Source: a virus
DNA length: 23,500 bases
Reading direction: 5' to 3' (one strand)
IMG/VR virus record: IMGVR_UViG_3300034272_001041
Span: 1 to 23,500 of that record
The stretch's first letter is position 1. Each line of letters opens with the position of its first letter. Under the pieces are notes generated by a model, which was not told the origin of the DNA, searched no databases, and saw only the letters and a list, made by a program, of their open reading frames with translations. Below are positions 5,429 through 7,318 of this stretch, piece after piece. The position numbers and the translations under genes were made by a program.

Positions 5429-6286
5429 ATGGAACAAGTAATTAGAAAATCAATGCTCATCCGTGAGAGTGGCAGAAGTACAGACTTTATATCACCAAGC
5501 TTTGGGCATGGTTGTCTATTTGATTGTACATACTGTTACATGAAACGTCATAAACCTGAAGGTTTAGACATTGCCAAAAACACAAGTGAAATACTAACTG
5601 AAATTAACAATCATAGTTGGTTTTCTGTTGTTGACAAACCAAATCAAACTCATGAGAAGTTTATTACTTATGACATCTCATGTAATGAGGATTTTGCTTT
5701 ACACTTAAAATATCATAAGTGGCAATACATCTTTGACTTTTTTAAGCAAAGTGAGATTGCAATGGGTTCATTTGCAACTAAATACGTAAACAAAGAACTT
5801 CTTACGTACAATCCTGAAAAAAAGATACGTATAAGATTTTCTTTAATGCCTCAAAAGTATGCAGATTTGTTAGAACCTAACACTACTAAAATCATTGATA
5901 GAATCAAAGCTATTAATGAATTTATTGAAGCTGGTTATGATGTTCATATTAATTTCTCACCTGTAATTGTAACAGATGATTGGTTAGAGCAATACAGAAT
6001 GTTGTTTGAAGGCGTTGATGGTCTTGTGGATAGAAAGTATAAAGATCAAGTTAAAGCTGAAGTTATCTTTTTGACTCACAATCGTGACAAGCATATTCAC
6101 AATTTGCAAACTGCGAAACCTGGCGAAGAACTGTTGTGGAATCCTGATATACAAGAAGACAAAACTTCGCAGTATGGAGGACTTAACTTACGCTACAAAC
6201 ATAATCTAAAGTCTGAGTACATTGATCAGTTTACACAACTTCATGATGAGATCATACCGTGGAACAAAATCAGATATATCTTTTAA
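5429..6286 (+). CDS. Radical SAM protein, spore-photoproduct-lyase-like
   Basis: 285 residues. The radical SAM cluster motif CxxxCxxC is present as C29, C33 and C36 in GHGCLFDCTYCYMKRH, which would hold a 4Fe-4S cluster and cleave S-adenosylmethionine. The 'SPSFGHGC...YCYM' context and the later INFSPVIVTDDW strand are typical of the SPL-like/Rv2578c-like branch. Spore photoproduct lyase is about 340 residues, so this is short, and I cannot point to the SPL hydrogen-donor cysteine. A DNA-repair role is therefore possible but unproven; RNA or protein modification is an alternative. The gene starts right after the VWA terminator and is followed by the small genes at 6296 and 6487. Confidence 0.82.
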   Translation: MEQVIRKSMLIRESGRSTDFISPSFGHGCLFDCTYCYMKRHKPEGLDIAKNTSEILTEINNHSWFSVVDKPNQTHEKFITYDISCNEDFALHLKYHKWQYIFDFFKQSEIAMGSFATKYVNKELLTYNPEKKIRIRFSLMPQKYADLLEPNTTKIIDRIKAINEFIEAGYDVHINFSPVIVTDDWLEQYRMLFEGVDGLVDRKYKDQVKAEVIFLTHNRDKHIHNLQTAKPGEELLWNPDIQEDKTSQYGGLNLRYKHNLKSEYIDQFTQLHDEIIPWNKIRYIF

Positions 6287-6295
6287 AATCAGCAT

Positions 6296-6490
6296 ATGGA
6301 AGTATTAAGTGAAGGTTCTAAAGTAACATATGTTAAAGACAGAACAAAAGAACACGGTATTATAAAAGTTTTTTCTGAAGACGGTAGATTTGCATTTGTT
6401 GTGTATCATTGCAATGATGATTGGGACAATTACAAAAATTACACAGGTCAAATGACAGCAGTATCAAATTTAAAACCTGGATGGATATGA
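6296..6490 (+). CDS. Small SH3/KOW-like phage protein
   Basis: 64 residues, predicted all-beta: GSKVTYVKD...HGIIKVFSEDGRFAFVVYHC then NDDWDNYKNYTG and a closing NLKPGWI. This alternation of short strands resembles small SH3/KOW-like barrels, and the 'VVYHCNDDWDNY' core is one I recognise from unannotated phage genes. Stop TGA (6488-6490) overlaps the ATG of the next gene (6487), so the two are coupled. Nucleic-acid or protein binding is plausible; no catalytic motif. Confidence 0.7.
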   Translation: MEVLSEGSKVTYVKDRTKEHGIIKVFSEDGRFAFVVYHCNDDWDNYKNYTGQMTAVSNLKPGWI

Positions 6491-6735
6491 TGGGAGCATT
6501 TTATTGTCCACATTGTGGCACAGCAAACGCGTGTAATTGTAAAACATGCTCACCTCATATAAAAGAAGGTGAATATGTCAATACTTGGACTGAAGATGGT
6601 GAGGGTATGATTTGTGGCAAATGCTCTAAAACATATAGCCCTGATCAATCTTTAGATGAAGAAATGAGACAAAGAAATTTTCCCCTGCGAGGCGGAATGG
6701 ATGTGGGTAATCAGGTAGACACTCCCCAAAACTAG
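6487..6735 (+). CDS. Small zinc-ribbon protein
   Basis: 82 residues from the ATG at 6487 (a second ATG follows directly). Cysteine pairs YCPHCG, ACNCKTC and ICGKC give at least two potential zinc sites. The segment EGEYVNTWTEDGEGMICGKC is conserved-looking for a phage zinc-ribbon family. The last 15 or so residues (from FPLRGG) are coded by sequence that also looks like the beginning of the structured RNA stretch, so the C-terminus may be a read-out of non-coding sequence. Likely role: protein or nucleic-acid binding; not an enzyme by anything visible. Confidence 0.7.
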   Translation: MMGAFYCPHCGTANACNCKTCSPHIKEGEYVNTWTEDGEGMICGKCSKTYSPDQSLDEEMRQRNFPLRGGMDVGNQVDTPQN

Positions 6736-6805
6736 TGAGGTAATGAGAGGCAAAACAATTGTCTGACACTAGCAAAATCGTGACAGCGTGGAAAGACATG
6801 CACAC
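6700..6805 (+). ncRNA. Structured, probably non-coding stretch upstream of the tRNA-like element
   Basis: Several nested pairings sit here: GTGGG/CTCCCC around GTAGACA (about 6699-6727), CTAGTG with CACTAG (about 6732-6772) enclosing AGGCAA/TTGTCT, and GCGTG with CATGC (about 6786-6801) around GAAAGA. The first 35 bases overlap the end of the zinc-ribbon gene. The GGGTAATC and GTAGACA wording recalls P5-region sequence of group I introns, but I cannot find a convincing P7 pair, so I call only 'structured RNA'. Confidence 0.4.
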
Positions 6806-6964
6806 AGTCAGGTGGCGAAAGAAGGACTGCACTGATAAAGCAGTATCCTGATGGCAAACGCATGAACAAAGGTTAACAGTAAGGATAACGTAGAGTAACC
6901 TTGAAATACCCATAAGTATAGCTCATAAGTTATCATACAGGTTCGAATCCTGTCCTGACTACTA
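6806..6964 (+). tRNA. Interrupted or degenerate tRNA-like element
   Basis: The 3' end is textbook: T-arm ACAGG-TTCGAAT-CCTGT (6937-6953), acceptor strand CCTGACT (6954-6960), then ACTA instead of ACCA. A perfectly complementary 7-base strand AGTCAGG lies at 6806-6812, followed by TG and a D-arm-like GCG/TGC stem (6815-6817, 6828-6830) whose loop contains GG. Between these parts there are about 105 bases in place of an anticodon arm and variable loop. They can form ACTGC/GCAGT (6826-6844), AAGGTTA/TAACCTT (6869-6902) and GATAA/TTATC (6834-6838, 6930-6934). No canonical anticodon stem plus variable loop fits, so I assign no amino acid. It may be an intron-bearing, tmRNA-like or decayed tRNA. 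Note that TCAGG could instead pair locally with CCTGA (6847-6851). Confidence 0.5.
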
Positions 6965-6982
6965 AATTTAAAAACAAACAAA

Positions 6983-7318
6983 ATGGAAAAAGAACCAAAG
7001 TACAAGTATCCAGTTGGAGACTTTTTAAGTGGCTTTTCAGATGATCAGTCAAACCCATGTGATTATGAATTAGAATGTCAACGCATGGTTATTAAAGGAG
7101 TAGAATATTTTGATGACAATCAAGAAATGTTTGACCTTATTAATGAAGGTGGAAAAAATGTTTTTGATGATGAACTTAAACCTCTTGTAGATCATATGAT
7201 TGAAGGTGGTGATGGTCAAACTGGTGCTATGGTTGGTCATACAGTCAAACATGCTTTTTATGCTAAAAAGTTAGGCTGGAAAGAGTATATTAACAAACTT
7301 ACAGAAAAATCAGAATAA
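6983..7318 (+). CDS. Unknown 111-residue phage protein
   Basis: The ATG at 6983 follows the tRNA-like element by 18 bases of A-rich leader. The product starts MEKEPKYKYPVGDF and contains a long helical, acidic middle (residues 35-75) and a basic C-terminus (KHAFYAKKLGWKEYINKL). No signal peptide or membrane segment. It is the first of a run of small coupled genes; the next gene begins 1 base after its stop. No family recognised. Confidence 0.7.
   Translation: MEKEPKYKYPVGDFLSGFSDDQSNPCDYELECQRMVIKGVEYFDDNQEMFDLINEGGKNVFDDELKPLVDHMIEGGDGQTGAMVGHTVKHAFYAKKLGWKEYINKLTEKSE

Follow-up and report, generated by a model that had tools for sequence, protein, structure and literature searches.

A candidate family of phage RNAs with a constant tRNA frame and varied modules in the place of the anticodon arm

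The window locus and its tRNA-like frame

The stretch of viral DNA analyzed here (the window) comprises 23,500 nucleotides, positions 1 to 23,500 of IMG/VR record IMGVR_UViG_3300034272_001041, and contains at 6806-6961 an element with the outer parts of a tRNA and a middle part, its cargo, of a different kind. Upstream lie a gene for a radical-SAM protein resembling spore photoproduct lyase (SPL), an open reading frame (ORF) with a zinc ribbon, and a separate conserved RNA at 6677-6801 that we call RNA U, while a gene at 6983-7318 follows downstream. This locus is conserved in related phages, and all RNA features with coordinates given below lie on the plus strand. Taken together, our comparisons suggest that the element is not a broken tRNA but a member of a viral RNA family that had so far gone unrecorded.

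The frame of the element is close to that of a regular tRNA. The 5' strand of its acceptor stem, AGTCAGG (6806-6812), pairs at seven of seven positions with CCTGACT (6954-6960), which is followed by A73 and C74 (up to 6962), and the T arm ACAGG-TTCGAAT-CCTGT (6937-6953) is perfect. These features had already been recognized in an earlier, sequence-only reading of the window together with the 3' end ACTA, which indeed stands at 6961-6964. That reading had also seen D-arm-like sequence but split the arm in two, missing that a D arm of class-II type has GGCAAACGC (6853-6861) as its 3' half. In the alignment with 23 relatives, the complete D arm (6815-6861) pairs GCG (6815-6817) with CGC (6859-6861) and has a conserved GG (6853-6854), present together with the normal T loop, in a loop enlarged by an inserted hairpin (6824-6848; GGA-CTGC ... 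GCAG-TA-TCC with the loop ACTGATAAA at 6831-6839). Between 6862 and 6936 of the window, a normal anticodon arm (5 bp, 7-base loop, U33) is absent, as had been suspected. Consistent with this mixed architecture, the Rfam tRNA model scores the element at 27.7 bits with an insert of about 100 bases (gathering score 29), and ARAGORN calls neither a tRNA nor a transfer-messenger RNA (tmRNA) in the window.

To follow the frame through evolution, we collected elements with the cargo of the window (the window class) using a pattern confined to the cargo. It matched 47 stretches that, except for one cut by a contig end, were all framed and yielded 29 distinct elements, 24 sequences of which entered the covariation alignment. 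Because the frame had no part in this search, covariation in it can be tested without bias. Seven frame pairs have changed on both sides, giving a score of 0.099 compared to 0.054 in shuffled alignments (reached by none of 500 shuffles), and the acceptor, T, and D stems all covary, including three of the five T-arm pairs. A different acceptor sequence is found in 7 of the 29 class members, and the partner strand has changed as well in those that were aligned. Rather than relatives without conserved stems, which the sequence-only reading had named as counter-evidence, we thus found stems that covary both in the framed element and in RNA U. Beyond the stems, elements with the AGTCAGG acceptor have T at position -1 in 84%, A73 in 92%, and C74 in 97% of cases.

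The cargo that replaces the anticodon arm (6862-6936) can form two crossing stems. The first pairs AAGGTTA (6869-6875) with TAACCTT (6896-6902) and is almost invariant in the window class (93.5% of cells paired), while the second (6884-6934) pairs GATAAC (6884-6889) with GTTATC (6929-6934) and GAG (6893-6895) with CTC (6922-6924) in 100% of cells, so that an H-type pseudoknot is possible. Across the cargos of the larger family described below (one per cluster), 17% have a stem of 7 bp or more that ends at the T arm (3.9% in shuffles), 18.5% have crossing stems of 6 bp or more (9% in shuffles), and the set folds better than shuffles with a mean z-score of -0.81. Many of these cargos therefore appear to be structured, though not demonstrably all of them.

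Size, spread, and diversity of the family

The ends of the frame recur widely in viral DNA, with at least 120 stretches matched by a 22-mer from its 3' end and likewise at least 120 by a 26-mer from its 5' end. Most stretches with the 3' 22-mer carry the frame AGTCAGG TG GCGGAAT(T)GGTAGACGC or a close variant upstream of it, with an unrelated middle in most cases. Conversely, 99 of 132 sites of the 5' 26-mer have an exact CCTGACT no more than 260 bases away; among the one third of the remaining 33 sites that we inspected, the T arm is kept in all but two, one lacking it and one running off its contig. Pooling the loci gave 228 distinct elements of the AGTCAGG type that share the frame of the window, from 210 loci (some of them overlapping within one contig) and with 164 cargo clusters. 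These numbers come from exact-pattern scans and are lower bounds, and the dominance of AGTCAGG is therefore partly an effect of the search. A long insert in the D loop is present in 16 of the 228 elements, and only 3 of 215 AGTCAGG elements could form a canonical anticodon arm (5 bp, 7-base loop, and U33) adjoining the D arm. Some cargos, such as that of L065, are by eye no more than a short hairpin with a tetraloop.

Framed RNAs often adjoin ordinary phage tRNA arrays. Twenty whole records contain 1-15 framed copies each, always on a single strand per record, and the reversed pattern had no match. In one 135-kb record, an array of 24 tRNAs called by ARAGORN adjoins around ten framed RNAs, and the tRNAs have diverse acceptor stems whereas the framed RNAs have one in common. 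Other acceptors (TGTCAGG, TGTAAGG, TGACAGG, and TGTAGAG) are found in a framed class at L012, L034, L045, and L080 with a large conserved cargo that in most cases includes ATGGGTTGACCAC. A related frame with the acceptor AGTTAAG/CTTAACT and an enlarged middle is encoded by a 735-kb phage (L233, LR756501.1), though this could also be a tRNA-Leu whose variable region is long. At L014, L053, L076, and L180, the short conserved sequence AACCTGTACCCTTGAAAAACTCGTATT lies inside or next to arrays.

The window locus itself illustrates how modules change between close relatives. L313 has the same D-loop hairpin as the window but a different cargo, while L309 has the cargo of L313 but a different D-loop hairpin (as does L284), and the downstream gene of both loci is 89-90% identical to that of the window. 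The two insertion sites thus change independently between close relatives, which suggests diversifying selection. Still other bodies follow the same RNA U at L307, L311, L298, L303, and L217, and the window resembles two neighboring framed elements of L217 fused into one. The loop ACTGATAAA, whose CTGATAA is also part of the anticodon loop of tRNA-Ile(GAU), is found on different stems at two positions of the frame, i.e., in the D loop of the window (6827-6843) and of L313 and in the place of the anticodon arm in L298 and L299. As for the neighboring proteins, the SPL-like radical-SAM protein is phage-encoded at 5429-6286 of the window (Pfam SPL, E 4e-24).

The family has no entry in Rfam 15, in line with the proposal of the sequence-only reading that this element is the best candidate for an unknown RNA in the window, and we found no earlier description in the open-access literature, a scope that leaves aside preprints and most subscription papers. 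Among isolate phages, none reaches 80% coverage of the element or of its joined frame ends, and the matches are partial, many of them being ordinary tRNAs. Bacterial species genomes contain the exact 3' pattern in only six contigs, four of them binned as Bacteroidota and two binned with other groups; a host origin of the frame was rejected based on this near-absence. Since Bacteroidota bins hold four of the six contigs and the helicase of the window is closest to those of crAss-like phages (about 32-35% identity), Bacteroidota are the likely hosts of these phages.

RNA U and the free-standing RNA X

The region directly upstream of the framed element had been described as structured in the sequence-only reading, and it indeed contains RNA U, which was found in 21 viral stretches matching its 5' pattern. 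Two hairpins of RNA U covary (score of 0.163 compared to 0.051, reached by none of 500 shuffles), and its central part with the core CTAGTGAGGTAATGAGAGGCAAAACAATTGTCTGACACTAG is almost invariant in the window and L298-L317. The 5' part overlaps the end of an ORF at 6490-6735, but other phages have RNA U without that ORF. Downstream of RNA U lie framed RNAs with varied cargos and once, at L312, what appears by eye to be an ordinary tRNA with the anticodon CAT. At its 3' end, RNA U has a hairpin (6786-6801, GCGTG-GAAAGA-CATGC) with a variable stem, and hairpins with the same loop recur ahead of many phage tRNA and framed genes. In its longer form TGAC..GGAAAGAC.., present in the window at 6780-6801, this hairpin ends 2-6 bases before these genes and varies in the length and sequence of its stem while pairing is kept. 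We rejected it as coding sequence, given that versions with three and four extra stem pairs differ by two bases and thus do not keep a reading frame. A further common stretch precedes the hairpin at L104 and L207 (TAGCAAGGCATAAACGATAAGGAA...) and may be another RNA.

Weak profile matches outside the window class led to a separate phage RNA that we call RNA X, with the core AAAAGGGTTTATAGTA...CAGAAACCCTGAAAGACCCGAA. It is around 100 bases long, pseudoknotted, and located within phage tRNA arrays (L333, L343, L353, L371, L384, and others), often directly upstream of tRNA or framed genes; at L353, a GOLLD RNA adjoins it. A pattern for the 3' part of RNA X matched at least 120 stretches, though some of these are plainly coding sequence instead, and Rfam gave no match for RNA X in the 12 loci tested. 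Across many different sequences, the strand preceding CAGAAACC has its pairing partner upstream of the core, e.g., GTTAATGGT with ACCATTAAC, ATAGATGAT with ATCATCTAT, and ATTATTATC with GATAATAAT. A pairing length score of 6 is reached in 63% of cases compared to 11% with shuffled upstream sequence; judged from these sequences, the pseudoknot of RNA X does covary. A profile built from 64 cores of RNA X aligned all 29 members of the window class, in order and over nearly the whole length, with 22.2 bits for the best member compared to 9.4 bits for the best of 3000 shuffles. The partner of the second stem lies downstream in the window class but upstream in RNA X, an arrangement that we interpret as if the frame had received RNA X in circularly permuted form.

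Proposed role and alternative explanations

At the level of sequence, the tRNA frame, its covariation, the loss of the anticodon arm, the diversity of modules, and their exchange at one locus are established. We consider it very probable that the element at 6806-6961 is a non-decoding RNA in which a constant frame of acceptor stem, D arm, and T arm holds a module swapped in for the anticodon arm, with the D loop as the site of a second, optional module. RNase P, RNase Z, and the CCA-adding enzyme act mainly on the acceptor-T half of a tRNA, and framed RNAs probably mature much like tRNAs. Their precursors would be cut by RNase P after base -1 and by a 3' tRNA nuclease after A73 before CCA is added, which would leave a stable RNA with both ends defined and the module on display. 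Frame, module, and maturation taken together still make a fairly likely picture. The role of the modules is a more tentative matter; they would target host factors in trans in the course of infection, and phages would exchange them by recombining within the constant frame, which is what one would expect of counter-defense. The diversifying pattern at the window locus favors such a role in counter-defense, which we regard as a possibility short of probable. Similarly tentative is the full model, i.e., that these are exchangeable RNA effectors of phages in a constant tRNA frame with one or two insertion sites, matured by the tRNA enzymes of the host and diversifying as sets against host defense.

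Several results weigh against this model. Single-sequence folding of the window RNA is no better than that of shuffles (z -0.45 and -0.88), so that its status as a structured RNA rests on comparative evidence, and the two cargo stems are so nearly invariant that covariation neither proves nor disproves the pseudoknot in the window class. The link to RNA X runs through the near-identical relatives of the window, because its own score of 8.3 bits, like the whole lower third of the class, lies inside the range of the shuffles. With regard to maturation, C75 is not conserved in AGTCAGG elements, leaving the RCC signal of bacterial RNase P substrates incomplete in the DNA. Finally, neither synthetases nor RNA-binding families are prominent among the neighboring genes (clusters inspected by eye).

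Two alternatives accept the frame but give it another meaning. The tRNA half alone might matter, e.g., as a decoy for RNase P, for the CCA enzyme, or for a toxin with affinity to the elbow or acceptor end of tRNAs, with the middle as mere filler that prevents use of the RNA in decoding. A constant frame around an extremely diverse middle and the existence of cargos that are only short hairpins would fit this idea, but filler should hardly be nearly invariant across the 29 distinct elements of the window class, have a core in common with a free-standing RNA, or fold better than shuffles as a set, and we therefore think it unlikely. We give still less credit to the view that the frame serves above all as a site for recombination or a homing endonuclease, with ends kept by gene conversion and homing and middles as passengers without a common purpose. 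The commonest protein family nearby looks by eye like a GIY-YIG endonuclease, the possible fusion of two L217 elements in the window is of the expected kind, and the phage homing endonuclease SegB is known to amplify a tRNA locus under defense pressure (PMC13096335). However, a DNA site would not need the compensated changes in the frame stems, and positions -1, 73, and 74 retain tRNA-type bases. Homing and recombination may explain how modules move rather than what the RNAs do.

The sequence-only reading had weighed a group I intron, a tmRNA, and a decayed tRNA and judged that all fit poorly, and indeed none of them is supported by ARAGORN, Rfam, or covariation. A tRNA spliced from around an unusual intron, of group I or otherwise, would account for the length of the element, the intact outer tRNA half, and the words reminiscent of group I introns that this reading had pointed out. 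These words proved misleading, with GGCAAACGC belonging to the tRNA D arm and GTAGACA to a hairpin of RNA U. Moreover, a search of the window with the Rfam model Intron_gpI (RF00028) gave nothing at E up to 1, while the same kind of search gives 52.2 bits in a related tRNA array (L343). As neither side of the cargo retains an anticodon arm and the cargos of many relatives are too short to hold an intron plus such an arm, we consider splicing highly improbable. The low tRNA score and the silence of ARAGORN would suit a decayed tRNA pseudogene, yet this is contradicted by compensatory changes and strict conservation across many contigs and hardly deserves credence. Equally remote is a tmRNA or a shortened relative of it: tRNA-like ends and a possible pseudoknot are reminiscent of one, but neither ARAGORN nor Rfam finds a tmRNA in the window, the D stem is normal, and all 24 aligned relatives have U-A as the third acceptor pair instead of the G-U of tmRNA. 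In addition, L012 carries a separate tmRNA called by ARAGORN besides its framed RNA. Other Rfam families were tried for the window RNA alongside group I introns, tmRNA, and Y RNA and were rejected as well.

If the proposal of framed RNA effectors is true, the laboratory tRNA scaffold has a counterpart in nature, and viruses encode a large class of RNAs that has stayed hidden. Annotation software rates many of these RNAs as weak or odd tRNAs, so that they would have been overlooked; their constant ends make the class easy to detect, and the modules would be many candidate RNA inhibitors of host factors. The engineered scaffold likewise keeps acceptor stem, D arm, and T arm and uses the anticodon arm as the insertion site; it works in E. 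coli, where any structured RNA can be inserted and is thereby protected (PMC3753655). While that scaffold is man-made and holds one insert at a time, the phage family is natural, has many inserts, and sometimes uses a second site in the D loop. Among natural RNAs, tmRNA (RF00023) also has tRNA-like ends enclosing a non-tRNA body with pseudoknots, but the window element has a normal D stem, no G-U third pair, and no tag reading frame that we could find. The bacterial Y RNA YrlA (RF02553) contains a tRNA-mimicking module with features of T arm and D arm, whereas here the frame closes the RNA with the variable module inside, and the Rfam model of YrlA matches nothing in the window at E up to 1. 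In a eukaryotic virus, the gammaherpesvirus MHV68, tRNA-like transcripts called TMERs carry microRNA hairpins; they are similar in comprising several viral tRNA-like units with varied cargos, but their cargo comes after the tRNA-like part and does not take the place of the anticodon arm.

Phage tRNA loci can come under defense pressure and be amplified together with a neighboring homing endonuclease, and some phage tRNAs counter tRNA-cleaving defense, such as the tRNA-Tyr of T6 against the Septu system (PMC13096335). Such defense-countering tRNAs are complete and decoding, unlike the framed RNAs without an anticodon arm. GOLLD and ROOL are structured phage RNAs of unknown role that are often found near tRNA islands (PMC12286853), but they are much larger, lack a tRNA frame, and have no match in the window. 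Arrays of the same kind as those with framed RNAs also contain a group I intron (L343:2063-2259), a GOLLD RNA (L353:758-1169), and a match to the freshwater-1 RNA near the cut-off (L016:4124-4186).
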